The position numbers and the translations under genes were made by a program. The notes beneath the pieces were generated by a model that was not told the DNA's origin, ran no database searches, and worked only from the letters and a program-made list of their open reading frames with translations. From Hygrocybe punicea (taxonomy: Eukaryota > Basidiomycota > Agaricomycetes > Agaricales > Hygrophoraceae), in contig OY744465.1 in the NCBI GenBank assembly GCA_963556145.1, forward strand, positions 1,798,001-1,862,000: DNA of 64,000 nt. Direction: 5' to 3'. Positions 19,656-57,057 of the stretch are shown here, piece after piece; the stretch's first letter is position 1; every line of letters begins with the position of its first letter.

Positions 19656-19664
19656 AAAAGATTA

Positions 19665-23618: not shown

Positions 23619-24446
23619 AAAACAAGTACTATTGAATTAAATGAACCAAAAGGGTTTATATGGGATGCAGAAGATTGGAGCTGTGCTTATGATTCACTCT
23701 TTACAATATTACTAGCAATATGGAATGAAGATCCATCAAGTTGGAAAAAAAGATTCAATAGCATCAATGAAATATTAAAGATTTTGAGCTTAGGATTCAA
23801 ACGATCCAAGAATCACACAACAGATTTAGAAACAGTTAGAAATACAATCAGACATTTATTGCATCAAGATAAACCCGAAATATTTCCTTATGGTCAAGTT
23901 GGCATTGCCATAAGTGATTTGGCCCATTATATAATGAAAGCAAATGAACCAATGACTTCAACTTGTCTTAAATGTATCAATTGTGAAAACATAACCATTC
24001 TGGAAAATGATAGATGTGACGCCATCTTTCATTGTTCATATTCATTTTCTGGAACAATCTCAACATGTCTTGCTCAAATCATAGTTAATAGACAACGGCA
24101 CAAATGTCAATTGTGTTGGGGAGAGATTACTAAATTTATTGCATTTAACAAAATTCCACCTCTAATCATGTTTACAGTTGACTCTATTGAGAATTTAATA
24201 ATTAGTCAAGTTATAAACTTGTCAATTGATGACATATCCACTGCTTACACATTGAGAGGAATTGTGTACTTTGGTGATGCACATTTTACTGCCCGCATAT
24301 TCATCAACAGTATGGTATGGTTTCATGATGGTATATCAACCAGATCAATTTGTATTAATGAAGGTGATATAGATGACTTTTCAAATATTAATTTATTGTC
24401 ATGTAATGGTAATAATGCTGTACTGTTTATATATGCTCAATCTTAA
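23619..24446 (+). pseudogene. Helitron protein segment 3: cysteine-protease-like C-terminus
   Basis: The frame continues from segment 2 after TGA. It opens with GFIWDAEDWSCAYDSLFTIL, in which the SCAYDSL cysteine sits like the nucleophile of ubiquitin-specific proteases. A zinc-type set follows (CLKCINC and, further on, CQLC) in the position of a USP finger, and then VYFGDAHFTARI with WFHDG, the usual arrangement of a catalytic His. The minus-strand Helitron has the same arrangement (DYSCAYDSL, YHGQYHFTSRI, WYHDG). The role is inferred: Helitrons of other lineages carry OTU proteases. It ends at a TAA just before the Helitron 3' hairpin. Confidence 0.7.
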
Positions 24447-24739: not shown

Positions 24740-25690
24740 TAGGTTTTTTTCCCGCACCCTCGCGCCAAATGAATGTGAGCATGGCAACAGCAACAAGCAG
24801 ATGGGACGCAGCCGAGAATGGGGACAACCCAGGCCGACCATGACAGCAAGAATGAGGACGACGGGAATGAGGACGATGGACTAAATGAAGACAAAAACGA
24901 CGACAAACACAATGACGGCGAGAATGGGAAGACGACGACAAAGCAGGAACGGCAACTACGACAACGGGAAGATGATAATGAGGGAATAGGACAACGAGGA
25001 CAACAGAGACCGGGACAAGAAGGACAATGGCCACGGGGACGACGATGGCAATGGGGATGACGACAATGGCGACGACGAGGACAGTGAGCACGGGAACGGG
25101 GACAGGCAACAGATGACAGAAACGAGGCGGACGCCCATGGGACGTCCCCAGTGCCATCCAACCTCACAAAAACACGGAGCGCGTCAATTGACGCGCCCCC
25201 ATTGTTCGCGAGGTACTTAGGATGGAATGTGGTGGGTACCCGCTGTCGTCTTATCCCCTCACCCTCACCCTCACCTCATCCCCACAGCAACAACGACAAC
25301 ATGGGTGGCAACAACGACAGCAGGGACCAGAACGAAGACAATGTGGACTGGAACGATGAGAACAGGAATGGGGACTGGAAGGATGACCGCAACGACAAGA
25401 ACAGGGACGACAATGGGGATGGGAATGGGGATGGTGACGATGACCGGAATGACGACAGCAGGGATGGCAATGACAACAACAACGGACACCAGGACAATGA
25501 GGATGACAATGAGCGACCGTGCCGGACGTGGACGAGAAGGATGCAGAAACGGGGGTGGCCAGGTCGAACGAGGAAGATGAAGGTGACGGGGACCCGGAAG
25601 ACGGGAATGACAGCAACCAGAGGCAATGGACCACGAGGACAGGGATGAGGATGGACCACAAGGATGATGGCGAGGTCAGGGGCGACCCCT
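24740..25690. repeat. Simple-sequence island rich in GACGA, GGCAATGG
   Basis: Long frames exist on both strands only because the sequence is purine-biased and nearly stop-free (Asp/Asn/Gly-rich on plus, Ser/Val-rich on minus). An intron-like donor and a TTTAGG acceptor precede it. The core at 25177-25212 (GCGTCAATTGACGC then GTTCGCGAGGTA) resembles cores in the islands at 3326 and 47531, so this is one member of a dispersed repeat family. I do not annotate a protein here. Confidence 0.5.
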
Positions 25691-25692
25691 CC

Positions 25693-26085
25693 TCTCCGTT
25701 TCCCCTCCCTCCCTCCTCTCCGTTTCCCCTCCCTCCCTCCTCTCCGTTTCCCCTCCCTCCCTCCTCTCCGTTTCCCCTCCCTCCCTCCTCTCCGTTTCCC
25801 CTCCCTCCCTCCTCTCCGTTTCCCCTCCCTCCCTCCTCTCCGTTTCCCCTCCCTCCCTCCTCTCCGTTTCCCCTCCCTCCCTCCTCTCCGTTTCCCCTCC
25901 CTCCCTCCTCTCCGTTTCCCCTCCCTCCCTCCTCTCCGTTTCCCCTCCCTCCCTCCTCTCCGTTTCCCCTCCCTCCCTCCTCTCCGTTTCCCCTCCCTCC
26001 CTCCTCTCCGTTTCCCCTCCCTCCCTCCTCTCCGTTTCCCCTCCCTCCCTCCTCTCCGTTTCCCCTCCCTCCCTCCTCTCCGTTT
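25693..26085. repeat. 24-bp polypyrimidine tandem array, 16 units
   Basis: A 24-bp unit (TCTCCG, TTTCCCC, then three TCCC/CTCC blocks) is repeated 16 times without visible change, plus a partial unit. The plus strand is all pyrimidine except one G per unit. The complement contains GGAGGGAGGGAGGGG in each unit, so each copy can form a G-quadruplex and the array could form triplex DNA. The reading frames that it creates (SPFPLPPS on plus, GGRGNGEE on minus) are artefacts of the repeat. Confidence 0.9.
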
Positions 26086-26324
26086 CCCTTCCCCCTCCGC
26101 CTACTCTTATTTATTTTTATAATATTTAAATTTATTTTAATATATATTCTTTTTACTAATGGACTGACCATAGTCGATATATTAGTCAAAGTCGCGGCTT
26201 GACTAGTCGAAGCCGTGACTTCAACTTCGACTACATCAATTTATGTGTATATAGTCTAGCTGTAGTCATGACTACATAGTTGCGACTACAACTAGTCAAG
26301 TCGCGGCAACACTAATCACAATAG

Positions 26325-29801: not shown

Positions 29802-30279
29802 AAACATAACAACGAACATATCACAATAATAAAGTAGTCGGTGAAGTGATGAATATGAGGGAGGAAATCACATACCAGTTAAGACAATAACACTCCAGAA
29901 TCTCTGGTTATTGCCTGGTACAATAACCAAGGATCCTGTAGTGTCACCAAAGGTAGTAGTAGTAGTTGTGAGGTAAGAAGAAAATAACCATGTTTGATGG
30001 TCTTGTACTTATTTGTTCATGTGACTTAACGTGTTTGTTGATCACATGTCACAAAGTGTGATGTCACGTTGGGCCGTCCAAACGTTACATCACACTTGTG
30101 ACATGTCGCGTCTCATCAATCATGTGACCTGTCGCGTCGCATTAATCATGTGACACGTGAGTGGTAATAATCATCATATTCCAAGGGCAGGAATCCTGCC
30201 CTCGTCTCACTATGTATAATAGGTACAAAATACAATAATAATGATATAACGAGGGCAGGGAATCACCCTGCCCTCGTCT

Positions 30280-30377
30280 CATTGCTGAGCCACCCCGACG
30301 GTCAGGTTCATTACCACTGCTGCTGCTGCTGCTGCGGTTCACGCTGCTGGTGCTGCTGGTGCTGCCATTGCCGTTGC

Positions 30378-30470
<93 letters not shown>

Positions 30471-31480
30471 CGCTGCTGCTGCTGCTGCTGCTGTCATTGC
30501 TGCTGCTGCTGCTGTTGCTGCTGTTGCCGTTGCTGCTGTTGCTGCCATCGTCGTCGCTGCTGCTGCTGCTGCTACTGTTGCCATTGTCGTTGTCGTGTCT
30601 GCTGTTGCTGGTGCTGCAGTTCGTGCTGCTGCCGTTGCCGTTGCCACCATTGCCATTGCCATCGCGGCTGCTGTTCACGCTGCTGGTGCTGCTGCCGTGG
30701 CCGGTGCGGCTGCTGTTGCCGTTCCCGGTCCCGGTCCCACTGCTGCTGCCATTCCCGCTCCTGGTCCTGGTCCTGGTCCTGCTGCTGCCTCGCCGTCTTT
30801 GTTGCTGTCCTCATTGTTGTCATTGCCGTCCACGCTGTCGTCGTTGCCGTCCACACTGTCGTCGTTCCTGTGCTTGCTGTCATCGTTGCCGTCCCCGTGG
30901 TTGTTGTTCCGGTACCCGTGGTTGTTGTTCCGGTCCCCTGCTGCTGCTGCTCTTGCCATTGCCGTTGCCATTGCAGGCTTCGCCTCAGCGCAGTAACGAC
31001 TGCAAGGCATTAGTAGTACATAAAATAAGCAAAAAATCACTGATGACTTACCGTTGTCATCCTTTTCTTCCTCACCATCGTCCACGTCTGGGTCTTCGTT
31101 GTCTGGGTCTTCGTCATCGTTGACCGCGTCCGCATCTGCGTCAACCCCGTCTTTGTCTCCGCCAACCCGGTCTCCATCGTCCGCGCCATCCCCATACCGT
31201 TGTGGATCCCGTCTCCCATCGTCGTCCTTGTTCTCGTCGTTCCAGTCCCCGTGTCCGTCATTGCCGTCCCCATTCTCGTCGCTCCGGTCTGTCATTCCGG
31301 TCCCTATTCCGTTCTCATCGTTGCCATCCCCCCTCTCTTCGTTCCCGTCCTCGTTGTCGTCATTCCGGTCCTCGTTGTCGCCGTTCCGGGAACCATGGTT
31401 GTTGCCCTCTTATGGGCCTCGTGTCATTGGCTGTCGATGTTGATGTGGTAATGTTGGTGGTCATCTGACGTGACATTGCC
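30280..31480. repeat. CTG-rich and GTCGT-rich simple-sequence island
   Basis: Contains an uninterrupted run of 25 CTG units (30380-30454) within a longer imperfect CTG/GTTGCC tract, followed by GTCGTCGTT-type sequence. Poly-Cys, poly-Leu, poly-Ser and poly-Ala frames in all registers are repeat artefacts. A GTAAGT-like donor near 31052 (minus) and intron-like sequence recur in the counterpart at 32790-33890. Confidence 0.7.
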
Positions 31481-38364: not shown

Positions 38365-38532
38365 ATATTTAAAACTCCGTAATCTTATCCTCTTGACCCT
38401 CTTCAATACTGCTTGCACAAAATGTTTGTAAACAAAGTCAGCCACATTTTGTTAAGGATGTGTTTACTAACATTTTGTCCAAGCCATTGTAGAGAGGGTC
38501 GAGGGGAACAAGGTTAGCAGTCTTTGAAATTT
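38365..38532. repeat. Small foldback related to the ends of the 39154-47349 element
   Basis: Arms 38367-38435 and 38461-38532 are imperfect inverted repeats with a 25-nt loop. Each arm contains a GACCCTC block followed by GCTTG and ACAAAATGTT with TAAACA. These resemble, in order, the inner terminal repeat of the large element beginning 600 bp to the right (GACCTCC, GGCTTGAAG, AAACATTT, TAAACAAA). It looks like a miniature element of the same family. Confidence 0.5.
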
Positions 38533-39293
38533 TAGTCAAGTTTTGGAATCTTCTGCCCTGGTACTACACGCCTATTTGTGCTAAGCCCTGATCCAGGGAT
38601 TTTTTCCACAGCCCTGGTCTAGGGCTAGAAATTGGCTTTTTCCATGCCATGGATGTTATGTCTGTTCCGGGCTTCAAATTTATCCCTGTTTTCGCACTGA
38701 GTCAACCCCAGTCCAAGAGGGTCCTGGCCTGGGTTTAGCACTAGCTAATGCCCTTTTCAACATTTTGCAGTATAATAGCTTCTTCAATTAATCATAGCTT
38801 CCTCAATTCATCAAATACTTCATGAAACCATATATCATTGTGGAATAGCTACTCTATGACATGAAGAATGTAAAAAGTAAAGTACATGAAAGGGGGATCA
38901 CAATGGTGGAAGCCAATATAAACAGGGTGACACTCACAGACAGGGCAGGGGAGGACTAACAGCTCAGGGCTTCATGACTGCAGCCAAAGAGGGGAGAGGG
39001 TCAAAAGAGAGAGAAGTTACAAGTTGGTGTTGAGAGGAGAGCAGATGGTGGTTGAAGGGAAAGGAATGAACATTGACAAACAATGGCAAAGGATGGACTT
39101 AGAACATTTTCAAATTTGCTGTCTTACATAATCCAAGCCACCAGAAAGCCCAGGCTCCTGCCAAGCCTTGCTGAGGGGGTGAGGGCGGATTCCCAGTGTA
39201 TAGCTACTGTAGGCAAGTTCCAAGAATCTGGGTTGGCAACAAATTTAATTTTAAAGTCCGTACTCTTAATCCCTTGACCTCCTCAGCAGTGGC

Positions 39294-42034
39294 TTGAAGA
39301 AAACATTTATAAACAAACGCTCCATAGGCTTACATATACCGGGTGATACTTATCCTCCCCAATTTAGACATACCTGCTCTGGTTTCCCTATGCTCAATAA
39401 ACATGCTCTTCACACCATTATCAGCTGCTTCTCTCAGTGCAACACCACAATCACTGAATTTATAAGAGCCTTCATAGCAGACAGCACTCTACAACAACAC
39501 AGCCTCTTCCTTGACATCATTGACAACTTAAATGAGTTGATCACTACGCTCTCCAAACACCCCAGCTTGCACCAACAAATCAAACAGTGGGCCCACAATC
39601 TTGTCAACAGTTCCCATATCAAGTCCATACAGGAGTTGTCCCATGTATGCAATGGATGGCATTTCAATGCCCTGCATGCCTCTGTGCATCAAATCAATGA
39701 CTTCCAGATTGAGGACATGGCTCAGGACATCAAGGTTTCAGCACCAACTTTATAGACGGCCGTATACACACTCCTTTCCACAGAAACCATGCCACTTCAG
39801 CATCAGCACTCTTGAGACTCCATGGATGAGATACGCAGGGCAGAAGATGATGAATATGAGCCTGAATTCTAGAAGCCCTTCAGTGATGAGGACAGTCCTC
39901 AAAACACTCAAGATCCAAATCCAGAAGCACCACATCCCTGGCACAAATGGAACCAGGCAGAATGCCGGGAGGCTATATGGACTGTTGTGAGTGCACCTGA
40001 GGTTAATTGAAACAGCATCCCATGACACTACACACAGAAGGCAACTATGATAATCAGTATCATGTTGCAAGGCATGAATCAAAAAAGCAATCTCCTCCAG
40101 AGCGTCTTCGGGATCTTCCTACACTTGTGTAATATTCCACAGAAGGTTATCCAGTCCCTTGCTCATATGGGTGTGTCTATTTCCATAGATTCTATACACA
40201 AGAGTGTCCAATCCTTATCCAATGAAACATATGACACCGTACATCAAATGGGGTGGTCACTTCTCATTGGTCATGCTTATGACAACTTTGATATTGACCT
40301 CAAGAGTAATCTACCCACAATTGAAAAAGATGGCAGTGGCCTCGTTCATATGACATCCGGCACCCTCATTGCTTTGGACCATGGGGTGAAGACTGAGCAT
40401 CTGAAGTGCTCAGAGGAACTATGGTGCAGGTCACCTCTCAATCCTCTCATCGACATACACCGACTTGCCCCTGCACAATCCATCTTCGACTTCTTTTCCC
40501 TGCATCCTGAAACAGCTCATCCATCAGGTCTGTTGCAACATCAACGGTTCAACACATGGATGTTCTACCATGACCTATGGACCTATGGACCTCTTTACTT
40601 TCACAACATTCAGCCCGCTGTCAGCCTGCCTGAGATGATTGAGCCAATACCAGTTGTCAAAATGCACCATGTTCCTGCTCAAGCCATGGACATAAACCAG
40701 TCAAAAGTATCTGGAAACATTCAGGCCATCTAGGAGTTAATGCGGCAAGGAGGCATTGGAGATCCTACTGCAGATGGTGCCAATCCAGATATTGTTGACA
40801 TCCAAGAACATGTTGTCATATTCTATGGGGACCTGGGCACATCAGGGCAAGTTGATGCTCTCCTGAACTGCTGCTCTTTGGAGAAAACCTCTACAGCACA
40901 ATTCCAGTTTCTTATATTCATTTTCGGTCTTTTCCACTTCAAGATGGCCTGTACAGAGGCTCTCTCTGGCGAATTTTCATTGAAGAAAAACTCAGTCGAG
41001 ACGATCGCAACAGCTTGATGAGGTTTTTAGCACAACATCGGGGACACAAGACAGGTAAATTTGGGTCCAAGCCAGGTTTTCATCGCATGCACAAAGTAAT
41101 TTGCCAGGATGGTGTTGCACTTCGCTTGGATGCCCAGAGAACAGAGCTGCAGAAGTGTAACAAGGCTTGGGTCAGCCTGGAACAGTTTGCACAATCTCAG
41201 CCCACCAACGCATACCTTCAATCAGTCGCCAACTCACTTGCTCTGACATATGTTGCCAGTTCAGGGCCTGATGTCAACATCAATGAACTGCGCCAGCACC
41301 CTGGCCATTTGTGTGACGCACAGCACGAGAATGTCCTCCTCATGCATAAGTTTTTCCTTCTCTATGAGGCGACTTCACATGCAATGAATTATGGCGACAT
41401 CGGACACCTCGAGACATTATTTCCTCCATGGATTGCCATTTTCAAGGCCACAGGCAAGCATAAATATGCAGCTTACTTGACAAGGCTTGCTTCTCAATGA
41501 GATTCACTGGACATACCCTAAGGACCTCAGGTGAGTACATTGGTCTGGGCTTATGATGTCGTTGTGCTGATCACACACAGCTGTGCCATTCGGTACAATA
41601 TGCTTGTTAATCCTACCAGCAAGGAGGGCACTTTTTGGGCACCCGACTGGGTGCAAGAACACAACAATCTCAAAACCAAAGTCACTTTTGGAGGGAGTTA
41701 TGTGAACTACACAAAGCAGAGGGTCCTCAATGAGTCTGCATTGATTGATGTGTACTGTAGCTGTCATGTTAACATTGAGCATAATTTATTGCTCGGCGGG
41801 CTGACCACTCAGCACACCCCTCCAGATCTCACAAAAACCTACAGGGTTTTGGCCCAATACATGCTTATGCACAAGACAAATGGGACTGTCCCTGGGTGCA
41901 AGTCTGCTTACAAAATACTTGACACAATCTCAGATGGACTATCATTGCTTGCAAATAAGGATGGCAGTATAGAAGGCAGGGATGATACATTAGATGAAGT
42001 CATTGAGGATGGAGACATCATGGCCAAATTTTAG
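39294..42034 (+). pseudogene. DUF6589 protein gene, decayed
   Basis: Plus-strand segments in order: 39294-39755 (NELITTLSKHPSLHQQIKQW, the helical N-domain), 40047-40733 (GHAYDNFDIDLKSNL, HRLAPAQSIFDFFSLHP, then VSLPEMIEPIPV), 40740-41018 (VDIQEHVVIFYGDLGTSGQV, FGLFHFKMACTEA), 41015-41500 (KPGFHRMHKVICQDGVALRL, ENVLLMHKFFLLYEATSHAM, PPWIAIFKATGKHKYA) and 41575-42034 (RYNMLVNPTSKEGTFW). This is the order of conserved blocks that I remember for DUF6589. A TAG at 40731 splits the first two core segments, a one-base frame slip lies near 41490, and a GTGAGT...CACACAG intron near 41530-41580 is intact. The catalytic role is unknown; my inference is that it is the transposase-like protein of this element. 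Confidence 0.7.
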
Positions 42035-42914
42035 ATAATGACTACACGTAGAAATTTTCGGGAGGAACAACTGTAGGGCCCTTCAATAGAGGCACATTGA
42101 CAGACACGCGAATTGTTGTCGAGAGTTCGGTAGCTGCAAATCTGTGAGACTTAGTTGAATGTAAGTGTTGTGATACTCACCTTGAGTCTGGTGCGGCATG
42201 GCAATGAAAGGGTTGACATTTTCGTCATTCAGAAGCAGAGCGTTCTGGATGCGAGTCAGATGCAAAGGACATTTCTGACAATTGTTAGCTGTACCGCTGA
42301 AATGAGCAATACACTGGCCGCTGAGAAGGGAGGGTCTTACCGATGTGGCCCTCCATCTTACAAGTTCTGCACCGATTGTGACACCTCTGGTTTTCATCTT
42401 GGAGAGGCTGCATTCGAGACTGTAGTGGCGTGGAAATAGTCAGTGGAGCAGTGGGCAGTGAATGGGTTTTCATGAGGGCCAGTATCTCCTCCACAAACTC
42501 AGTTGCCCAAATCCACCGTGTCTCTTATGACAGAGTCTCCACTGTGTTGATTTTCCCACAGTGCGTGCAGTCAACCAGGCATTGAAGGACCTCATCCGAC
42601 ATAACCAGACTGGGTCCCATCATGTTGAGCACCACCAGTCCGAACTTTCTAACTGTTTTGTTGATGCGAAATCGATGAAGTGCCGTGGTCAGTGCTAGAT
42701 CGTGTTGATTGGCGTCATAGGGTGTCAGACAAGACCAGGGTAGAGGTTTGTTGGGATGAAGGCTTGGGTCAACAGGTGCAAAATCCATAAAGGCACTTGG
42801 CAGGCAGCCCTTGCAGCAGACGACTGGTTTGAGGTAGACACAATGCAGACAGCCAGTAGGCAAGTCAGGGCAACATGCCTTGTGGTCAGACTCTGTATTG
42901 GTGTATGTAAATGT

Positions 42915-43069
42915 TGTGGTAGGGAGATCTGGTAGATCACGTGACCTTCCCACGGTTGGATTCAGTAGATAGCTCTGTTTGGTAGTCAGTAGGATTAGGA
43001 TTGATCTTAGTGACTCGAGCTTAGCGATTGAGCTAGAGGACTCCCTGCTAGCCCATCGGCACCTCTCCA
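42915..43069 (+). repeat. Left LTR, 155 bp
   Basis: Identical to 45365-45519. Contains GATCACGTGACC and a TGTTTGGTAGTCAG block also seen in diverged form in the solo LTR at 53671-53815. Confidence 0.85.
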
Positions 43070-43332
43070 TCGTGGTGATGAGAGCGTGATTCGACCTTTA
43101 ACACGCCTGCTCCTGCTTTCTTGTTGCATCCCAAGTCTCTTTGGTGCTTTTGTCTCAGTATCTTAGTGTCTCAGCGTCCAACGTCTTAGCGTTTCAGTGA
43201 TTTTGCGTTCCCGCGTTTTGCGTCTTTGCCTCTCTGCGTCTCTAAGGTTTCGTGCCTGCGTCTCCGCGTTTTACACCCTGCGTCCTCGCGTTTCACATTT
43301 GCATCCCAGCTCTCTTACTTTTCGCAATCGAC

Positions 43333-45201
43333 ATGCCAGGCCCCAGCAACAAAAAAGCTGCTACAAAGAAAGCAAAAGCCGCACACCATGTCAAGCCAAC
43401 TCGAGCTACCACACTTAGCGAATCGACTACGATAGACAAATACACGGTCGAATATAAAGATAACATCCGCAAAGCTGCCGTCAACGAGTTCGATGCTTCA
43501 TTCGACAAGGCCAATGCCTTAAAAGAATTTTTCGAGATCGCATTTGCTCTTGGACAATTGACAACAGCCGAACAAGCATCCAAAAGAGCCGTGAAAGCAG
43601 ATGAAGACCAACGAAGAGCCTACGACAATGGCCGATTGGTAGGATACGAAGCAGGGTATGAGGATGGCAAGGACTTTGGCCAATACGACGGCTATACCGA
43701 AGGGTACAACGATGGCTGTTCGGATGCAGCCTGCCAATCGCCTGACACCGCGCAAACCAGCACACCGCTAGTGAAAATATCAGCAACAACACAAACGGAA
43801 CCGCCAACCCAACATAATCGGCCCATCTACGCATCCACGTCGACCCAAACAGCACTCGCCTACACTGCTACAAGCATACAGACAACGCTGTCCATCGGCT
43901 CAGCCGCAACCAGAACCCCAGCTCACCCGCTCACTCCGAAAACGACACACCACACGTCGACCCAGACAGAACCGTCCATCCACGCGTCTGCGTCAACGAC
44001 GCCGCAAGTCTACATATCACCGGCCCCCACCTGTGCCCCCACACCGAAAACTACGCGCCACGCGTCAAAGTCAGCCCAAACGACCCCACACACCTTCGTG
44101 TTCGCGTCAGTACAAACGGACGAGCCGCAAGCGCATCCACCGGCACCCAGTGCACATAAGAACGCTCACACGGCCCCACGCGCACGTGGAAACGCGTCTC
44201 AGCAAGCTCCAGCTTACCCACCCTCGCCAAAAACGACCCCCACTGCACCAGGACGTGCCACGTCATCAGAACCACCGCGTATCGAAGTACCAGCCCACAC
44301 ACACGCGACGAGAACGGCCCCACACGTCCCAGCACATTCCCCGTCGCCCAACACTGAACGCGACGCCTTCCATGTCCCAATGCCCACCCAAACGGCCCCG
44401 TTCACGCACAGAAACGCGTCCCAGCGTGTCCCAACAAGCCCACCCGCTCAAGAATCAACACCCCCGCTACAAAACGCGTCCATACGCGTCTCAGACCGTG
44501 AATCCACCATGCCGGCACCAGTGCCCAGTCAGTCCACGCCCACGCAAGCCCAAAGACACGACGTCGCCGTCCAGACGTCGCCAATGCGACCCCCAAAGCC
44601 AAGCGACGTCGAAACACGAACCGGCGTGTACGCGAACGAAAGGAATGAGAGGGAAGGAGACAGCACGAAGAAAGAGGAGACAACGACACCAAGAGGAGGC
44701 GAGACGAGCGAGGCCGCCCCAAAGACGAACGGGGGCATGCGCCGAGGCGACGACGAGACGGACCAAGAGGAGACCGTGGACGGCTCCGTTCGTGTGCCCA
44801 ACCCCGCCCCAACGTCTACGCCAGCACAACCTACGCGGTTCAACTGGGCTGAAGACGCCGCGACGATCCCACTTCGCCCCGTTTTCCCAGCCAAATACCC
44901 ACCTCGCGACCTTTCAGGACTCTTCTCCGACAACCGACGGCCCTTCGCCACCCTTCAACGTTGTATTCGACAACGCCACGCACGCCCTCGAGCTCGCTGC
45001 ATATACACAAGACCACCTGGTCCAGCATTCACACGATCCCACCCATCTGGCATCGCACCTGGCCGACCCATCTTCATGAAGCCTTTCCACACGACATACC
45101 CAACTGCCCCGAGATCTACCTGTCTCGACTGGGACCAGGACCCTCGTCTCTCAGACTTGAGTAGAGCTCTCCAGGCCCTAGGTTGGAAGAAGCCAAGATA
45201 G
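43333..45201 (+). CDS. Gag-like ORF of the LTR element, 622 aa
   Basis: The first in-frame ATG is at 43333 (MPGPSNKKAATKKAK), after a pyrimidine-rich GCGTTT/TCTCTGCGTCT leader. Residues 30-110 form a helical segment. A glycine/tyrosine repeat follows (GYEAGYEDGKDFGQYDGYTE). The middle 350 residues are disordered, with degenerate TPKTTxHxSTQTxP-type units. The C-terminus has FNWAEDAATIPL, YPPRDLSGLFS, and LDWDQDPRLSDLSRALQALG. I recall the last two blocks in many uncharacterised mushroom proteins, which suggests that they are products of this LTR family. No zinc knuckle, protease or polymerase motif is visible. An overlapping +1 frame (44033-45079) stays open because of base composition. A particle-forming role is inference. 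Confidence 0.65.
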   Translation: MPGPSNKKAATKKAKAAHHVKPTRATTLSESTTIDKYTVEYKDNIRKAAVNEFDASFDKANALKEFFEIAFALGQLTTAEQASKRAVKADEDQRRAYDNGRLVGYEAGYEDGKDFGQYDGYTEGYNDGCSDAACQSPDTAQTSTPLVKISATTQTEPPTQHNRPIYASTSTQTALAYTATSIQTTLSIGSAATRTPAHPLTPKTTHHTSTQTEPSIHASASTTPQVYISPAPTCAPTPKTTRHASKSAQTTPHTFVFASVQTDEPQAHPPAPSAHKNAHTAPRARGNASQQAPAYPPSPKTTPTAPGRATSSEPPRIEVPAHTHATRTAPHVPAHSPSPNTERDAFHVPMPTQTAPFTHRNASQRVPTSPPAQESTPPLQNASIRVSDRESTMPAPVPSQSTPTQAQRHDVAVQTSPMRPPKPSDVETRTGVYANERNEREGDSTKKEETTTPRGGETSEAAPKTNGGMRRGDDETDQEETVDGSVRVPNPAPTSTPAQPTRFNWAEDAATIPLRPVFPAKYPPRDLSGLFSDNRRPFATLQRCIRQRHARPRARCIYTRPPGPAFTRSHPSGIAPGRPIFMKPFHTTYPTAPRSTCLDWDQDPRLSDLSRALQALGWKKPR

Positions 45202-45364
45202 GCATTTTTAATATTCTTCTTTTTTCCCATTGCTTTCCCTATATGACTCTTGTCCATTTCTTTTCCATTTTTGTTATTCCTTTCCATCTCTCTTCTTGTC
45301 TTTCTGTCTCCCTCTTTTCTCTTTCGCTGGCAGCGGGGACGCTGCCATTTTTGAGGAGGGGACA

Positions 45365-45519
45365 TGTGGTAGGGAGATCTGGTAGATCACGTGACCTTCC
45401 CACGGTTGGATTCAGTAGATAGCTCTGTTTGGTAGTCAGTAGGATTAGGATTGATCTTAGTGACTCGAGCTTAGCGATTGAGCTAGAGGACTCCCTGCTA
45501 GCCCATCGGCACCTCTCCA
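45365..45519 (+). repeat. Right LTR, 155 bp
   Basis: Identical to 42915-43069 and preceded by a polypurine tract. A stem-loop GGCAGC-GGGGAC-GCTGCC lies just upstream (45330-45347). Confidence 0.85.
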
Positions 45520-47349
45520 ACGTTACGCAATACACCAAACATGGACCCATCCAAATGACTGTTGCTGAAGTATATCAGCAATTGCTTTCGAAAACACCAC
45601 AAGTGTGGTCTCATTTTCACATTGATAAGGTCATCCATTACAGGTTCTACCTCTGTCACTTTACTCTTCCGTGTTCACAACTGCGCAGGTGATTTATTGT
45701 ACACCATCTCCAGCCTGGTCTCATCATCAAGCCCATTTTCTGCGGAGTTGGCTGGGATAGAGGGAGTAGCCACAGCTGCAAGCACCTCTGGGGCAGGCCC
45801 AGTATGCCATTTCTTTTTGGTCACTCACAACATTTCAAGGTTCTCACTTGCCTTCTTTTTTTTCTGCTCAGCCAAGCCACCTTCTGCTTAATGTTTGCAT
45901 TGAAATACTTCGGCTCAGCAATGAGCATGGCAGTCCTGGTCAACACCCTGTTTCATCCAGCTCGACTGGAATGCTGCCACAAGGTGCAGATATCACAAGT
46001 CACTTTCCACTGGATCACCAATTCTATGTCCGGTAAGTCTAAGCCCTGAAAACAAGTCAGATAACACAAATTAGATGATGACCACAGTCAACTTACCATG
46101 TCGAAGGTGTCTGTAGCCAGACAACCCCATGTACACCCTTCCTTCAGGTCTTCACTGGATTCTTCATGAAATGTTGCTGACATCTCTGAATTGAACCACT
46201 TAATTAGACTGCACCTTGCAGGTGGCAAACAACTTCGCAAAAAATTTGATGCCCATACCGATTCAGCAATGTTGTTGAAGAAGATCAGAAACTTAGGAGG
46301 ACACCATTTGGGAGGGGGGTTTTCTGGAATAAGAAATGCAAGGTCCAGGAAGCTATTGGTGGGATGGACCATTTCGCGGACAGTGAGTTGAATATTTGGC
46401 CTGTCATTTGAGCGATGTACAGTGACTGAACTCTGTTTTCTGATTTGTAGTATGTCTGTGACATCCTGCAAGAGCCAGGTAGGGAGTGTGGCAGATGTGA
46501 CAAAAATCCAGACATGGCCCAGAAGAAAGTATCAGAGTCATTCCGCCTGTTTATACTCAGGGCTGAACACGCCCCAGTTAGCAATACAATGACCCTCGTC
46601 AAATGTGAGTGCAATCAGCTTGCTTGTAAATATACTGTTCTTCCATAAGCGTTCAAATCCACCACCAGGCTTTATTAAGCTCTCAATGTTCGTCAAAATG
46701 GCACAGTATTTGAGGTTGGCAATGTCCTGGTAATATGTGTATGCATAATCACAGCCATATTATAAGAGTGCTCACTCTGAAGTTTGCAGGTGTTGCAGTC
46801 TCAGCCATAATGCAGATGGCTGGAATGCCATGTTTAGCAAGACTGGCGACATTCAGTGTACCCAGAATATTGAGTGGTGTGCAGACAATCATGATGCCAT
46901 CCGCTGAAGCTAGCAAAGGCATCCAGAATGTGAGTGTTTTGCCGGATCCCATTGCTGCTTTAAGAATAATATCTTTGTCTTTCTTCAGAATGGCCTCCAC
47001 CACAGTGACCTGCCACTGGCAAGGGAGGTGGCCGAAATATTTCTTGGTTTTTGCCCCAAGATTGTTGGGTGGTACAGTGTCGGCTGGTGATGTTTGAGAC
47101 ATTCTGTAGAGAGACACAAAAATATATATTAAAAATTGCCAGATTAGGGCTTACTGAAATTTGTCGCACATTTGTTTACAAATGTTTTCTTCAAGCCGCT
47201 GCTGAGGAGGTCGAGGGATTAAGAGTACAGACTTTAAAATTATAATTGGTCGGAGACTGATATTACCTCATATTGGACATTAAATCTATGGTACTTTCCA
47301 TAAAACTAGGAATTTGTCCCTCACCCCCTCAGCAAGGCTTGGCAGGAGC

Positions 47350-48193
47350 TAATGAATGGCATGGGTCTACTGTGGGTTGTTTTCTGCAACCCATACCTGT
47401 ACCTGTCAATACCTGTACCTGTTGCCACGGGTACAGGTTTGCAGGGGTTAATCTGTGGGTCCTCAGCTGTGACTGGGTGGTGTTGGGCACACCACCATCC
47501 TCCCGGTTACCTTGCGGTTGCAGTGCTGACATCAATTGACGTGATGATGCACATCCGCAAGGTACGTTGGTGGTGGGATGGCTGTGGCCTTCGTCATGGT
47601 CATTGTTGCGGTCATGGTTGTGGTTGTGGTCATGCTAGTGGTTGTGCTAGTGGTCGTGGTCGTGGTCGCTGTGGTGGTTGTCGTGGTCATTGTTGTTGTT
47701 GCTGTTGTTGTCATTGTCCTATTTGGAGGGCTGTAGGTGGTGGTGGTGGCTGCCGTTGTCACCCTCATCCTTGCCACCTGTCATCCTCACCGGGTGTGTG
47801 GTGTTTGTGTTGTTGGTACTGCTGTTGTCATGGTCTGTGTAATTAGTAGCTAAGAAGAAGAAAAAAAAAAAACATACCTACTGCAACGGGGGGTGGGTGC
47901 ACCACCCTCCTGCTGCCCTTCTCCCCATGTCCCATTATTGTCCATCATTGTTGTTGCTGTTCTCGTTGTTGTTGTTGCCATTGCTGTTGCTGGTTGAGAG
48001 CAAACCGGATGTCACGCAGTCATGACACTACTCGCGATAAACCCGTGACCCATGCCATGGGTACAGGTTTGGGCTGGGTCCGGATTTGGCTACCATACCT
48101 GTACCCATGGCAACCCATGACTAAAAACCCATGGGGTCGCTGTACCCCTGCAGTTCACTAGCAGGAGCCTGCAAAAAGCCCCCAAAAACTTGT
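47350..48193. repeat. Simple-sequence island with ACCTGTACC/GGTACAGG flanks
   Basis: Both sides carry repeated CCATACCTGTACC and GGGTACAGGTTTG blocks in inverted orientation (47388-47450 and 48055-48125). The centre is GTGGTTGTTGTCGTGG-type sequence. It has the core GACATCAATTGACGTGATG and CGCAAGGTACG (47529-47565) shared with the islands at 3326 and 25177. The frames on either strand are low complexity. Confidence 0.5.
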
Positions 48194-48647: not shown

Positions 48648-49331
48648 TCAAAGACTCTGAGCATAAATAGCTAGTACAAGGTTTCTCTTTTTACAGTGTC
48701 TGATATCATGGTCTGAAAGTTGTGTAAGGTCAGTGTCTCTGGAACAAGAGTTGCCTGTAATCATTCCATCATGATACCATACTTGTTTCTGTGCAGTAAT
48801 AATACGTGAGGTGAAATGATATTGACCATGATATACAATGCCTCTAAGTTCTAATGTCTTTGTGCCAGTCTCTGAAACAAATTCTAATCTATGACTGGTT
48901 TCAATGTTTTTAAATGGATACTCCAGAATAAGAATGTGTGGTGCTTCATTATAAAATACAAGTTGAGTCATTCTGCTGTTGCAAACAGGACATCTTCTAT
49001 TGGTTTTCTGTGACAAGGTATCAACCCACTTCATGGTAGACTGTTTAATGGTGTCATCAGCATGTAACACATAGCCTAGTCTGTCATCAATGGGTTCTTC
49101 TGCAAAGTCACATTGAGAACATTCATGTTGAGAAGAGGCTACAATGTCATTGACTTTAAACAACTCCATAGCCAGATTTGCAACACTGATGCCCATTGTG
49201 CCTCTAGGAAAGTCTGTAGGATTCATATTATGCAGTGTAGTCCTAAGATGATCTCTTAGTTGTTCAAATGTTACATTTTTGTGCAACACCTTGGAAAAAC
49301 CATGAGACAATGTGGTGAAATGATCATTCAT
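48648..49331 (-). pseudogene. Helitron-2 C-terminal protease-like domain, His part
   Basis: Continues from the preceding segment after a TGA. Shows a zinc-type pair CSQCDFAEEP and CPVCNSRMTQLVFYNEAPHI, then RGIVYHGQYHFTSRI and VWYHDGMITG, which align with the plus-strand Helitron. The catalytic-type Cys is in the segment ending at 49335. It ends LAIYAQSL at 48648. Confidence 0.65.
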
Positions 49332-49334
49332 GCT

Positions 49335-52300
49335 TCAGAATACTGTAGACCACTTCACATGATTGTCTTTCCACAGATTGAACAGAATCACCAACAATGA
49401 GTCATATGCACAACTATAGTCATTTCTATCCCAGATCAGTCCAGCTGGAGAGTTAATGACCTGTTGCTTGTTTGTTGATCCTTTGTTGACATGGTCTTTG
49501 GTGATCTGAGGCCTTTTAGCTACTGGTTCAATGTTTGTGTCAAGTGAATGTTTGTAGGTTGAAGCAATAGCAACTGAGCCTTTTGCTGGAACAAATGAAG
49601 TTGCAATTACAGCTGCTTTCTGTTTTCCTTTGCCTTTTTCAACCAATTGCCATGGGCTATCAGGGATTGTACAAGCCAATATGAGTGGATCAGTTGGTGA
49701 CCATTTGATAGCAGTGTCAGTTTTGGCAGGAATGTAGTGAATTCCCTTCCACTGCTGAAAGTTTCGAAGCATAACAGAGCGTGTACCAGCATCAATGTGG
49801 TCAGGTAAAGCACCTTCATATCTGAGCCTGGTAATCTCATCAAGCAATTCTAGCTCTCTAAATTCTTGTCTAAGATATCCAGAACAACCTCTAGTGATCA
49901 CTTTAGTGTCAAAGCCTTGAATTATTACAGTTCCAGCAGCAGAAGCACTTCTAGACAATGAAGAATACTATGACATGTGGTTGAAGCAACTATTCAAATG
50001 CACAACATTGAATGGACGTGTTTTTCCTTGAGCAGCATGAGCAGTCATTGCAAAGTTAGGAAGCACCCAAACTTGTTGTCTCTCAATGGATTCCTTCAGG
50101 TCACTGGGAAATACACATTGAATTGTCTTGGTGTTTTTTACAATGGGCACTACATTGTCAGGCAGTCCTGGAATCTGCACCAGCTTTGGAGGTTTGTCCA
50201 GTTCAACAAACAAAGTGTCAAGTACTCTTTTGCCATGACTTGCTTTCATTGACTGCCAGCCAACAACAAATCCTTCTTGTCCTTTTGTAATGCAGAGCTC
50301 AGTGGCATCATTGTTGCGAAGCATCACAGGCATACCAAGACACAATGAGAGTTTCCCAGCAAAGTTATCAGTTGCAGCATGTCGCACTTTCCATATCTCT
50401 CTTTGTGTATCAAAGTCTATGTCACTGGATTGATGTACAGCTTTAGATTTGGACTTGTTTCTCACAGAATCCTTGTCTTTTCCTCACTTGTCAATGGAAT
50501 AGAAGTTAGTCAAGTTCTGGTTGGTGTCAACAGCAAATCTTTCACATCCAAGAACATTGATCTGATCCTTTTGTGAGTGAATACCACATATGATAGGAAT
50601 ATTTCTAAAATTCTTGGAGGCAATGTTGGGCTGGTCTGGACGTTTGCCTGCAATTCTGATTCTTAAAAATTGAATGTCCTGTGCAGTACATTTGCCATAG
50701 CGCATGTTGACAAGGGCAGTTCTGAATAATGCATCCTCAGCTATTTGGGTTTTCTGTCTCATGTTTTCTCTGAGAATCACAACTGTGGTCACTTGATGCC
50801 AGAGTGCTTTTCCAATTGCAGTTTCCTGAGAGTGTGTTGTCAGTGCTGATGTGATCTGAGTGCCAACTGTTCCACTGTACAATGATACACCTCCAACTGG
50901 TGGTAACTGAGCAAAGTCTCCAGCAAATATCATGTTGATTCCACCAAATGGGATGTCATGTATGTTCAAAGCTTTAGCCAGTCTGGCACTGATTTTATAG
51001 AGATCGTGACAAGACAGCATTGAGACTTCATCAATGAAAATATAGTCAACTCCTTCTAGTCTACCTTTGAGCTGAGCAATGCCCAGTGCTTCATTTCTAT
51101 TTGACATGTTTGGATTGATGCCCAGGAAGTAGTGATAAGTTGAGCCATTTTGCAGAGCTGCAGATGTACCAGTAGGACCAAGAATAACAAATCTGTGAGA
51201 CTCATGTGTAGTGTCAAAGAAATCAACAACTGCTTTGATGACTTGTGATTTTCCAGTGCCAGCCATTCCAGCAATATTCATTTTCAACTGCTCACTGCTG
51301 GGAGATGAAGCATGATTTGCAATAATCCTAAAGGCTCTTTTCTGCTCAATGTTCAAGCTGAATTTTCTAACTGTAGCATCAATTAGCTTTTGTCGCTGTG
51401 CATTTTCAGCTCTGAATGTTTGCATCAAGTATGATTGGTCCACAATCATCACATAATTTTCATTTGGATCAGTATATGTTTTGTGTGAAGTAGACTTTGA
51501 GTTTGCAGGAATGTGTTGATTTCTCTCATCCAATATATCTTGTCTTTGTTCTTGAACCAGTTGTTTCCATTGAGTACCAGGTTGATTCATTTCAACTTCA
51601 AGTGGAGCAGAAATTACTGTAATTGAACCATCTGGACATGGATCAAGCCAACCAATGTTTCTGACAATGTTTTCAGTGGCATCCATTTGAGCTTTGATCA
51701 GTCTACCATGTTGACCAAGCTCAGAATATTTGTTAGTGCCATAATCTGCATTGTTTTTGTCCTGCTCATAATTGTCATCTCCAAAGTCACCACCATTTTG
51801 AATGTTGTCATCATCCAAGTGTGAAATCATGTCTGAAGTCATAAATTGAGGACAAGTACCATCTAACACTGCTCCTTGTCTAAGCTGAGCAGAATAGTCA
51901 TCTCTAGCATTAAGGCATTCATATCTCAGATTAAAGTTGTCCATAATCTCTAATTCTCTATCAGTGAATTCATGATCAGTGAATGCTTCATCCCATGATT
52001 CCAGTTCACTTTTCAGGTCATGACCAGATCTCCATGGTTTGAACAGAGTGAGCATTGTGGTGCAATAATACTCTCTGTCTCCTCTGTCACATCTGGGCAA
52101 TGAACCACCAACAAAGTTTGGAACAACATGCTTCTTCTTTTTACTGAATTCTATGCAGTGTGTTTCATACAATGGGTGATCTTCTAGAAAAAGCTTGGTA
52201 TCTTCTTGAACCAGCTCAGTGCTATCAGAGTCATTGTCCTCTGAATCACATTCTATGAAGGTTTCATTATCTTTGATGTTCAGATCATCAAATTCTATGC

Positions 52301-52412
52301 TCAAGTCATTACTGGTAGATACATTAGATCTCGAAGTTTTTTTGTGAGTTGCAGTTTGTGGCTCAGATTCCAAGACATCTAACTCATCATCACTGTTTAT
52401 TTCATCATGAGC
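49335..52412 (-). pseudogene. Helitron-2 PIF1-like helicase and protease Cys region
   Basis: Three consecutive segments in one frame: 52412-50484, 50480-49968 and 49964-49335, separated by single stops. Motifs: DRGDREYYCTTMLTLFKPW, then Walker A AGMAGTGKSQVIKA, LGPTGTSAALQNGSTYH, Walker B YIFIDEVSMLSCHDL, GGINMIFAGDFAQLPP, RENMRQKTQ, LCLGMPVMLRNNDATELCIT, LSRSASAAGTVIIQGFD, and at the end LIWDRNDYSCAYDSLLVIL, the protease-like cysteine. The other copy has Tyr-Tyr where this one has stop-Tyr near 49966, so that stop is not a simple C-to-T change. Confidence 0.8.
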
Positions 52413-52415
52413 TTT

Positions 52416-55400
52416 TCAAATGTTTCTCTTGGCTCTTTTTGCACCCTGCACCCATTCATATAAATTTATGTCTTCATAATAAGCTGGTCTGTAAATATAG
52501 TCATGCACAGCAGATAGTCCTATGAATTTTCCCTTTTGATTGTGCAGTACAACCTTTTCAGATTCAACTTGCATGTCATCAATTTCATCTAAATTCCAAG
52601 CTTTCTGGACTTCTCTCACATAGTTTCTCCAGTAGACAGAAATGAATTTGTGACTGGTATAATGGTCTGGGTTGCCAAGAAGATACATTGAAGCCATTGG
52701 ACCACCAATTTCAAGTTTTGCAGTCAAAGCATTTATGATCTGGGTGATGAGTTTTCTAGCTTTGTCTTTTCTTTTCATGGATCCTCCAAGCATTTCTGAG
52801 TTTCTATCAAACACACTTCTGATGGTATCAAATATACTATAGGTTTTCAAACCAGCTTTTGTAATATAGTCAGAGATATATGCTACAATTGCTTTGATTG
52901 CAGTACCAGAAAGAAGACTTGTAACATCAGAATTGCAGCGAAGTAGAAATGTCACTAGTGGTGTCAATGTATTGATCCAAGCTTCACCCTTTTTCATATT
53001 CAATGCACCAGTTTTTGGATCTACTTGTGTTGATTCAAACAAAGGTCTGGGAAATCTAGCTTTGCATTTATCATGTTTGTTCATGCAACTGGGTCTGTCT
53101 TTTCTCTGGACTTTCTCATTGTTTGAACTATTTCTGCCACAATTATGAACATTGGAGCATAGGATCAAATGATCAACAGTGTTTTCAAATCTCTTCCACC
53201 ATGAATTAATTTGTTTGCAATCATTGCAATTGATGTCACTGTTCACATCATGCTTATTTGTACACATAGGTGGGGGTGCTTCAGGCAGAGTCTGAGTGGG
53301 ATCCTTACAGTCTGCCTGTTCAGATTGCTGGTTTACTTTAGCTTGAACTTCATCCATTGTTCCAGTCATGAATTCACCAATGTGCACACTTTCTAGGTAC
53401 TCAACGAAAGCTTGTTGGAAATCTGAATTTGAATCCATTATTCTATCTCTGATTTCCTGAGGTGACAGACATCCCTTGAGCCATAGTAGCATGTGCATGT
53501 GCAGAGTGAGACGTCCTTGTTGCTCCACTGTGCCATAGTATGCCTTGGTGTCACCATAAAAGCCAGAATGCTTTGAACCAACTCCCAGGACATGTTTGAT
53601 AAATAGTTCTACCATAAAGTGAAAGAATCTAGCACCAGCCACTGGGTTTTCTGCAATAAGTCTGTAGCGCTGTAGTAGATGTACCTGGACAGTCACGTGA
53701 CTAGGATTCCCATGGTTGTGTTTCCTTAGTAGTACAGATCTCGTGTTGTAGGGATCATCATCACCATCATCACTCGATTCCACCCCAGTTCCCTCAGCCG
53801 ACTCCGTCCCTCCACAGCGCTCATCATATCCTCTAAGTTCTGGTGTAAATGTTTCCTTGGTATCAGCAAAATATAAAGACAGTGGATGCATGTTATCTGC
53901 AGGTGAAAATGTGATGAACCAGGAAGGTGCACCCACAAAGGACATCAGAGACCATACTTCATTTCTCATATATTTCTTGCTTGTGAGTGATCCTTTGACA
54001 TGACTTCCTACATGATCAATATCTTTAATTAATTGGAAGCAAAGTTTCTCTTCATCAGTTTCTGGAATGACATGTTCACCATCTTCCATTTTTCTAGCAA
54101 TGTTATTCAAAACTCCAAGATCAACATCTATTAATCTTTGTGAAATGTGTTCAAATTTTGCTTTTTCAGCTAATAAATAGCCAGCTGTGGTAGACTCTTT
54201 GATCTGCTCATGGTTGAATGCAATCAAAGGAAAGTGTGGATCTTTTTGAAATCTCTTGTCATAATACATCAATAAATGTCTCTTATGTTTAATTTCAGAA
54301 ATTTTGCCTTGAATCAGAGAATTGCCAATTCCACCAAGTCCATAGGGAAACAGCCATGGCATCATTTGAGGGAATAGCTGAGGATTGTTATAGATGGACT
54401 GTGGATCACTCTCATGACCAATTGCCAGGATCTTTTTATTATCCATCAGATGTTTTAGTGCAATTGCTTTGATGGCTTTGATGCTTTTGGTTGAGTACTC
54501 TTCACCAGTCAGACCATGAACAACAAATGGACATATGCCAGTCTCAGTTCCTTCTTCTTCTTCCATGTCATTGACAGCAGTAGCTTCTGGGTTTTTGTTA
54601 ACAAATGATTGCCTGTACTCTACCACAACTGGTATATCATTCTCAGGGTATTGATTCAAGTTATCTTCTGAAATTTCCAAGTCAAAATAGTCACAGTGAT
54701 TGAGTTTCAACCAGTTTAATGCAATTGCAACTTTATTTCTTCTAACAAGCAATGGTGTACGCTCAAAATCAGATTTTGTAGGCTTACATGGTCCAGTATA
54801 AATAAATGCTAGCACTTCATCCAACTCATCAATAGGTGGAGGCAAGATGTCATAAATCTTTGGAGTTGGATTAGCAAATGTGATGGCATTGGCTCTCATT
54901 TTGTGCATTCCAGATGAAACTCGAACTATACATCTATTATGTCTCACTCTAGCAATTAACAGTTGCTCAGCATAAGACAAGTTGCTCAATTGTTCTGGAA
55001 CTTTACCAAGCCATAAGCCATTTGCAAGTGACATAGTTGGACATTTGCCTTTGGACAATGACTTGCAACACTTTTTGCAAATGTCAAGCAAGTCATCAAT
55101 GATTACAGGGCCATCTGTAGATTCTATGGGATCATTTACTGAGAAGCGCTCCTTTTGTGTTATACCAGCTTGTTTCAAACAACTCAAATTCAAGTCTGTG
55201 TAGCTTTGCAATTGAGAGACTGGAGTCAATCTTCCACAGACAGCACAACCAGATTCAATGAAATTGTTTGCAGAGGTATCACTACAAAACCCTGAAATAA
55301 TAGTGTGTTGCAATTTTGCTGAAGGTGGAACTGGAGGGAATTGTATATTGTCTCTGTATGTTTGAACAGCGATCTGATTTATTTGTGCATGCTGCTCAGG

Positions 55401-56891
55401 GTGATTTATGGTATGTCTTCTAACTGCATTTAGTGTGTGTTGTAGATGCATTTCATTATGATCAACTTTGAATTTGGTAACAGCTGCAAGGTTTTGTGTT
55501 GCATGCTTCTCAGGATGTTCTAGATGGAATTTCTGCACAGCTGCAAGGTTTTGCATAACATGCTTATCAGGATTTTCCAGATGAAATTTCTGTACAGCTG
55601 CTAGATTTTGTTTAGCATGCTTGTCAGGGTTTTCATTATGAAATTTTTGTACAGCAGTCAGATTTTGTTTTGCATGTTTGTCAGGATGTTGTGCTTTAAA
55701 CTTATTGACTGCTCTGATGTTCAAGGTTTTCTTGTGAATTGCAATTGCTTCTTTATCAACAAATTCAATGTATTCAAAGACAGATAAAAATTCAGGGCAG
55801 TTGCAGCACACATGAGTCTGAATTGCATTTTGAATTGATGCATGATTCATTTTTGAGTGAACATGAATGCTATGACTAGCTGCAATCACCTTCAAGTTTG
55901 CAATGGTCAACTTTGGAATCAACAGTTCAAATGGGTGATTTACAATTATGAATGACTTCTCAGATGATAATTCCAGAGAGTGTGCTTCATTTTTTGTCAT
56001 GTAAGAGTAGAATTTACACTTGGCTGTATCCATACTAGCATTGTCATTGATTGAAGCAGGCATTAGTTCTTGAAGTGAGAATACATGTGCTTTGCCTCTA
56101 CCAATACAGTCAATATGAATGTTAGCACTGAAAGATATATTGTCAGACTTGAAAATGTCAAATAATTTCGAAGTTTTATTACAAATATAGTATGCAGACA
56201 CTTGACAAGCTAGAAAATGATGCAGAACCAAGAAAAATAGTACAATTGCCCCATTGGCTAATAGAGGTTGTTTTGTAACATATTTCAAGTAAGCTCTGAA
56301 GTCATGTTTTCTGAACACATTCTGTTGAAGTTTCAACTTAATATACATGCATTTATTAGCCATGCTAGTTGTACAATGATACACAGTAAGCAAATCAAAC
56401 ATGTTTAAGATAACTCTGGCATATAGTTCAAATAGAAAAGAGGTATGAGTTAATTGAGAACTAGATAGAACAAATTCAGTACTGTTGTGGACACTTGTGA
56501 ATTTTTCAGGGATTTGTGATGTGAAAGAAGAGGTGGACTGGAGACCAATTTGATGAACAGAGACTAAACTTGGTAAATAAGTGGGATTTTCATGCTTTGG
56601 CAAATTGTCTTTGTAAAAATTCAAAGTAACTGGGCATAGAGTGACATTTGGTATGACAGAGACAGTTGGTGTGACATGGACGGTTTGTATGACACTTGCA
56701 GGAGGCACAAGGCCAATCCCAGTGACAGCACATTGTGCCCAAAACATTGCAATGATAAAAATCATAAGACATTGTGACAATGATGACATTTTTAACATTT
56801 TTGTGAACAGGTTTATAGTTTTTTTGAAAATAAAAGCTGGATGATAATATGGATATGTCAAATATATCTGGAGAAGATGAATAAACAACAT
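52416..56891 (-). pseudogene. Helitron-2 N-terminus and Rep domain
   Basis: The first in-frame ATG is at 56891. The N-terminal 90 residues are hydrophobic. Near residues 380-500 there is a tandem array of 19-residue units (AVQKFHNENPDKHAKQNLA and variants, about six copies) that the other Helitron lacks. Zinc-type ESGCAVCGRLTPV, then NLSYAEQLLIARVRHNRCIV, NPVAGARFFHF, the two-histidine motif GRLTLHMHMLLW and the tyrosine motif AYISDYITK follow in order. A 50-residue in-frame addition just before RYRLIAENPVAG is the translated solo LTR at 53671-53815. The frame ends with TGA after KRNI; the upstream and downstream sequence continue in frame, so the stop is secondary. Confidence 0.8.
53671..53815 (+). 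repeat. Solo LTR with 5-bp target duplication, inside Helitron-2
   Basis: 145 bp starting TGTAGTAGATGTACC and ending CCGTCCCTCCAC, flanked by a perfect 5-bp repeat AGCGC (53666-53670 and 53816-53820). It is related along its length to the LTR at 42915-43069: both contain TGTxGTAG, CTGG, TCACGTGAC, TTCCCAxGGTTG and AGTAG in the same order. The inserted 150 bp equal 50 codons and contain no stop in the Helitron frame. Confidence 0.85.
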
Positions 56892-57057
56892 ACCAATACA
56901 AATTCCAGCACAAAGAGCAGTAAAAATCGAAAAAATCCACAAAATTTTGCATTTTAGGCCTATAAATAAATATAATATGTAAACATTTGATCATAGATGG
57001 TAATAGATTCATACCTGAGCCAGAAAAGATCCACTGCAAACCTGTAGGTTAAGAAGT

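Follow-up and report, generated by a model that had tools for sequence, protein, structure and literature searches.

A degenerate DUF6589 and RecQ helicase transposon with terminal inverted repeats and 9-bp target duplications in Hygrocybe punicea, most likely of the AcademH lineage

The element in the window and its boundaries

We analysed a window of 64,000 nucleotides from the basidiomycete Hygrocybe punicea (contig OY744465.1 of assembly GCA_963556145.1, C7:1798001-1862000 in our coordinates), and searched the 92.2-Mb genome in 42 contigs. Between positions 39151 and 48171 the window holds an element carrying a gene of the DUF6589 family and a RecQ-like helicase gene, delimited by a paired-end search for YAGnCTC-like ends flanked by duplications. 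Both genes are disrupted by stops and frame changes, and we regard the element as a dead DNA transposon. Its parts, in window positions, are the following:

39142..39150, no strand: left copy of the target-site duplication, CAGAAAGCC, 8/9 identical to 48172-48180
39151..39317, no strand: left terminal inverted repeat (outer part 39151-39185, inner part 39240-39317)
39270..42034, plus strand: broken DUF6589 gene, probable transposase, in pieces 39270-39755, 40026-40733, 40856-41500 and 41522-42034
40281-40283 (D), 40830-40832 (D) and 41411-41413 (E), plus strand: codons of the acidic triad proposed from conservation
42290..47120, minus strand: broken RecQ-like helicase gene (DEAD profile match, reading frames and match to the helicase of the related locus L014)
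42915..45519, plus strand: nested long terminal repeat (LTR) element, with LTRs at ~42915-43069 and 45365-45519 and an open reading frame (ORF) at 43246-45201; it interrupts the helicase gene and is not part of the transposon
47171..47349, no strand: right terminal inverted repeat except its final 3 bp, from the inverted-repeat alignment
47350..48160, no strand: 811-bp dispersed repeat that interrupts the right terminus and is foreign to the transposon
48161..48171, no strand: remainder of the right terminus, made of the duplicated GCAGGAGC and the last 3 bp, CTG (the related locus L023 ends GGAGCCTG)
48172..48180, no strand: right copy of the target-site duplication, CAAAAAGCC

The first-pass annotation had placed the element at 39154-47349, inside a 32-nt outer and a 71-nt inner repeat. 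The repeats are real, and the outer one is borne out as 32 perfect base pairs (39154-39185 / 47318-47349), but the inner one extends over 78 bp at 92% identity (39240-39317 / 47171-47248), and both are parts of a single interrupted inverted repeat of 179 columns at 78%. The true left end is 39151, where the element starts CAGGCTCC, and homology to a sister element on contig C33 begins at the very same base (L022:740 corresponds to window 39151). The right end had been set 822 bp short of its position at 48171. By eye, no common flank or duplication was seen at 39154 and 47349, because the 811-bp repeat has inserted in the right terminus. This repeat is flanked by its own 8-bp duplication, GCAGGAGC (47342-47349 and 48161-48168); a copy at C40:4669527-4670344 aligns with its full length (bases 1 to 811) at 82%, and the genome holds 54 matches, the long ones at ~77-86%. 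With its 8-bp duplication and its ends (TAATGAA.../...TTCACTA), it is hAT-like in form. Beyond it the terminus resumes and is followed by the 9-bp duplication, so that a right boundary at 47349 is ruled out. The duplication of the window element itself reads CAGAAAGCC on the left and CAAAAAGCC on the right.

The sister element (C33:5614740-5631453, 16.7 kb, covering loci L022 and L023) is 92% identical to the window over 2995 columns, and it has both ends and a perfect duplication, ACTAAAATG. These data bear on whether the two repeats could stem from separate insertions, with the genes neighbours by chance. The flanks at 39154 and 47349 would speak for that; however, the missing flank is accounted for by the 811-bp insertion, the sister carries both ends with its duplication, and the two genes are linked at 52 of 71 loci (see below). 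We give this explanation virtually no credence and reject it.

As for the genes, the PF20231 profile recognises the last three DUF6589 pieces, one of which scores 26.3 bits, slightly below the 27-bit cut-off, and piece 39270-39755 represents the N-terminal part, its resemblance to L014 being judged by eye only. The helicase gene, whose family assignment is taken from its relatives, retains a C-terminal cysteine region (~42530-42900) and a zinc-knuckle-like piece (~42290-42330). The claim that the repeats enclose exactly two convergent genes holds for DUF6589 on the plus strand and the helicase on the minus strand, but overlooks the LTR element nested in the helicase gene.

Recurrence of the element in the genome

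The first-pass annotation had proposed examining other DUF6589 loci for an inverted-repeat boundary and a RecQ-like neighbour, and looking for empty sites. We fetched 17 DUF6589 regions (L009-L022 and L024-L026, with L023 continuing L022), 13 of them chosen by match score or open frame and four for their nearness to terminal-repeat matches. The boundary recurs: paired ends with perfect 9-bp duplications were present in 12 of the 17 regions, comprising 8/13 of those chosen by score or frame (L010, L011, L012, L013, L014, L018, L019 and L020) and 4/4 of those chosen by terminal repeats (L021, L022/23, L024 and L025). An additional perfect 9-bp duplication flanks L027:998-4270, a 3.3-kb element without a DUF6589 match, whose inverted arms of 901 bp are 99.8% identical and contain helicase sequence; this element has therefore probably moved in trans. 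The 13 perfect duplications are all 9 bp long and vary in sequence.

The motif search tolerated up to two mismatches in the terminal motif, with a spacing of 200-9900 bp; it missed the duplications of L020 and L022/L023, which were then recognised by eye. As a control, we paired left and right ends from different loci (18 loci, any distance), and found 3 perfect 9-mers among 635126 pairs. At that rate, 0.18 would be expected among the 37912 same-locus pairs, where the same motif gave 11. One region, L009, has a single clean end. It is a 98.8% copy of L010, and the homology stops exactly at one terminus. A Helitron-like ORF in L009:1-2160 ends at 2080, close to position 2151, at which the likeness to the L010 element breaks off, and truncation of L009 by a Helitron is possible.

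Paralogous empty sites were detected for 4 of 14 junctions (L010, L012, L013 and L027), using joined flanks as queries and scoring 40 of 1343 candidates. We read one site per junction, with 112, 120, 120 and 120 of 120 bp aligned without gaps across the junction and 1, 2, 0 and 1 mismatches, respectively (98-100% identity). Each contains a single copy of the 9-mer, with one base different for L012. Hence, insertion was precise and generated the 9-bp target duplication.

Next to DUF6589, the helicase is a regular companion. DUF6589 matches define at least 71 loci here. At 52 of them a helicase match lies no more than 12 kb away, with a median gap of 1261 bp. All 52 pairs are convergent, with the helicase 3' of DUF6589, and no other orientation was seen. 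Random placement in any orientation gave a mean of 1.6 linked loci and a maximum of 8 in 2000 trials (the length of contig C8 was set by eye for this control). Linkage was established with two helicase queries; 57 of the 95 rows of the second were entered and 38 were dropped for overlapping first-query loci or, in one case, adjoining an entered row. Since 102 of 162 DUF6589 candidates and 81 of 204 and 94 of 134 helicase candidates were scored, as well as the 40 empty-site candidates mentioned above, these counts are lower bounds and more empty sites may exist. Two of the 19 unlinked DUF6589 loci were fetched, and both had helicase sequence at the expected place, one a clear helicase and the other a 49-residue helicase-like remnant. 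Conversely, at least one helicase cluster devoid of DUF6589 (C1:7780640-7783357) sits inside the non-autonomous L027 element. We also observed four weak helicase matches, all with the same score and in frames of 849 aa (C8:6274167, C20:31063, C21:8866 and C27:20698), which may be copies of a single subtelomeric RecQ gene.

The two proteins have diverged together. Among the 12 elements of this genome with usable frames (L010, L015, L017, L022 and L024 were left out), DUF6589 and helicase distances correlate with r 0.95, a value reached in 0 of 5000 permutations. The same three lineages (L013/14/19/21/25, L009/11/12/16/18 and L020/26) recur in both protein sets. In other Agaricomycetes, 29 of the 158 DUF6589 proteins listed could be matched by contig and species to 28 helicases from the best 120 of 1708 hits, as judged from equal contig sizes and species names read as agreeing. 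With 28 of these 29 pairs (one helicase occurred twice), the correlation is r 0.81, which may reflect shared species history. Some of the shared contigs are small, such as those of Leucogyrophana (5872 bp) and Gloeophyllum (6440 bp), and in Phlebia brevispora the two genes bear neighbouring numbers, g3330 and g3331.

According to these results, the recurrence of DUF6589 and helicase inside inverted-repeat boundaries, with duplications and empty sites, identifies one transposon, of which DUF6589 is very probably the transposase.

Ends, proteins and a possible mechanism

The 28 ends of 14 elements share a short motif, with A, G, C, T and C at positions 2, 3, 5, 6 and 7 in at least 27 of them, and C or T followed by A at the first two positions in all 28. 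There are two main forms, CAGGCTCCTACCAAGCC and TAGTCTCGTTCCAGACG, with L020 standing apart (TAGACC / TAGCCTC). Where both could be compared, the form tracks the protein lineage: CAGG ends are found in L013, L014, L019, L021 and L025, and TAGTCTC ends in L011, L012, L018 and L010, the latter standing for its near copy L009, with L020 again apart.

The shape of the ends and of the duplications also bears on whether the element could be a KolobokH, a fungal transposon of the Kolobok superfamily with a RecQ helicase. The excerpted description of that superfamily (PMC9587614) includes fungal, RecQ-bearing KolobokH elements and one red alga Kolobok with RecQ on the complementary strand, together with TTAA duplications and RR..YY termini. 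In contrast, none of the 13 perfect duplications here is TTAA, and every one of the 28 ends begins with C or T and then A. Moreover, the KolobokH helicase is reportedly located downstream of the transposase domain, whereas here it is a separate, convergent gene. Barring a Kolobok lineage that makes duplications of this kind, the 9-bp duplications refute the Kolobok reading, to which we assign an extremely low probability.

An inverted copy of the tip motif recurs further inside the end. In agreement with the earlier suggestion that each end can fold on itself, the outer and inner repeats can pair, and single-strand folding predicted an outer-inner stem of ~12 bp in the two left ends folded, those of the window (z -1.98, with 8 of 200 shuffles as good) and of L025 (z -2.24, 3 of 200). 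At z values around -2, a hairpin between the outer and inner repeat of one end receives only modest support from the prediction. The inverted tip motif and the predicted stem hint at two binding sites per end. Outside the element, positions 38367-38507 of the window match the inner repeat at 70% and are partly palindromic; they might be the older remnant of a related end.

To characterize DUF6589, we scanned three of its proteins against Pfam at E-values up to 1, and obtained DUF6589 itself and one ARM-repeat model (E 0.013) only, with no match to MULE or any other transposase model. The motifs [HYW]DN, [GN]D[LQ].T and GD..R.E are conserved across lineages that are ~75-85% different. Excluding gaps, and in the numbering of protein P0009, D280 is present in 51/52 rows of alignment A1, D466 in 50/50 and E658 in 46/47; in the wider alignment A3 the values are 12/12, 11/11 and 10/12. 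This conservation makes a D-D-E (or D-D-D) catalytic set plausible, and the ~190 residues between the last two candidates would leave room for an inserted domain.

One could argue that the element is of the MuDR/MULE type and picked up a helicase, as the range given for IS256/MuDR elements in the excerpted source, 4 to 10 bp, covers 9-bp duplications (PMC10045372). Against this stand the lack of any MULE match in the Pfam scan and the absence of the C/DxxH signature at a conserved histidine (position -3 is G in 49/49 rows for H501 and R in 48/49 for H552). The string occurs somewhere in 27 of 52 rows, and its bearing depends on the proposed triad being right. Besides, the helicase is no recent capture, having diverged with DUF6589 over three lineages. 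We thus regard a MuDR/MULE origin as very unlikely.

The core of the helicase belongs to the RecQ family, with 157.1 bits to TIGR00614 for protein P0080 (under the model cut-off of 219.8) and WRN as the best solved relative (E 1.6e-29). Its C-terminal pattern, YFGN...H..C...C.RC...CC..C, resembles the RecQ zinc subdomain. A zf-CCHC_6 knuckle was matched in 3 of the 4 helicases scanned, two of them above the cut-off.

From these elements a working scheme can be proposed. DUF6589 would bind the motif that each end carries twice, at the tip and, inverted, further in, would cut with the acidic triad D280, D466 and E658, and would link the ends to target DNA at cuts staggered by 9 bp. The helicase might open the ends, or else assist in resolving and copying the intermediate in which ends and target are joined.

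The window contains other repeats. In the nested LTR element, the direct repeat is 159 bp at 99% identity, its alignment extending 4 bp beyond each LTR; the ORF encodes 651 aa with no Pfam match above cut-off, and 8 copies of the element's first 336 bp are present in the genome at 99-100%, including that of the window. No exact duplication was seen flanking it, only AATGTT / AACGTT. On both sides of the transposon lie large elements, each with a smaller ORF 3' of it (16662-24446 on the plus strand and 48648-56990 on the minus strand), which we presume from their ORF motifs to be Helitron-like. Long simple-repeat tracts at 25251-26240 and 30142-31409 generate overlapping spurious ORFs on both strands.

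Interpretation and comparison with known transposons

Our interpretation, which we hold with a probability of about 0.8, is that the feature in the window is a dead terminal-inverted-repeat transposon with 9-bp duplications, whose convergent genes encode DUF6589, likely a DDE-type transposase, and a RecQ helicase with a C-terminal zinc region, and which most likely belongs to AcademH. Several points weigh against it. The duplication of the window element itself is imperfect, at 8/9. The choice of regions was non-random, with 4 of 17 picked by terminal-repeat matches, and in 5 of 17 (L009, L015, L016, L017 and L026) no end pair with a duplication was found. No helicase has been seen at 17 of the 71 DUF6589 loci, and 25 of 77 helicase clusters lack a DUF6589 neighbour. 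The DDE-type fold is an unproven candidate suggested by conservation: a search of solved structures with the DUF6589 profile gave nothing relevant (best E 0.49, unrelated), two of the 12 sequences in A3 (L016 and L018) have Q in place of E658, and the nearby D653 is equally conserved (45/47 in A1 and 12/12 in A3), so the third residue of the triad is uncertain. Animal members did not appear among the named hits in either of two DUF6589 protein searches, which covered 77 of 77 hits in the first and 120 of 255 in the wider one, some of the hits bearing no name. Finally, AcademH was compared by its excerpted description.

Given this last point, the DUF6589 and RecQ elements might constitute a superfamily of their own outside Academ, resembling AcademH in helicase and duplication length only. 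The comparison covered the described features of AcademH, and the literature searched has no paper joining DUF6589 and Academ. On the other hand, the helicase, the 9-bp duplications and the occurrence in Basidiomycota all fit AcademH as far as the excerpted descriptions go, and we consider a separate superfamily unlikely. Were this less favoured possibility correct, it would imply an independent pairing of a DDE transposase and a RecQ helicase, the latter retained as a permanent component in three or more deep lineages that coexist in one genome, with palindromic double-site ends and 9-bp staggered, perhaps replicative, transposition.

The first-pass proposal that DUF6589 is the transposase of a class with its own helicase stands as regards a single transposon and a likely transposase, but its suggestion of an undescribed class is not supported, AcademH having been described in 2020 according to the excerpted sources; the class itself is most likely already known. 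What is new here is the naming of DUF6589 as its probable transposase, together with the true boundary, the 9-bp duplication, the empty sites and the three lineages. DUF6589 was not mentioned in the literature searched, which hence offers no published tie to AcademH or to a transposase. No function is known for the DUF6589 family, which numbers at least 71 loci in the genome analysed and gave 255 hits in the wider protein search; if it is indeed a transposase, annotators could reclassify its genes as mobile DNA instead of host genes. The ends and the duplication length provide a means of finding elements and their non-autonomous offshoots, and the 14 mapped elements, four of them with empty sites, offer material to investigate the role of a RecQ helicase in DNA transposition.

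Among known systems, Helitrons also carry a helicase, but they are not known to have terminal inverted repeats or a target duplication, and both are present here. KolobokH shares with our elements a fungal host and a RecQ helicase, and differs in its TTAA duplications and RR..YY termini from the varied 9-bp duplications found here. AcademX belongs to the same superfamily as AcademH by report, and its excerpted description gives duplications of 3 or 4 bp and a nuclease, against 9 or 10 bp and a helicase in AcademH (PMC10045372). Our elements have 9 bp and a helicase, and nuclease models gave no match among the 9 window ORFs scanned. AcademH comprises helicase-bearing DNA transposons of the Academ superfamily from animals and fungi (Kojima 2020, Mob DNA 11:15; excerpts in PMC10045372 and PMC10799480), and is reported as low-copy in Basidiomycota, Ascomycota and Mucoromycota (PMC10799480), in contrast to the at least 71 DUF6589 loci counted here, many of them broken. 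No outright difference appeared in the features tested, and the 9-bp duplications, the helicase beside the transposase and the basidiomycete host are all alike. Judged by these described features, the element is most likely a member of AcademH as published.

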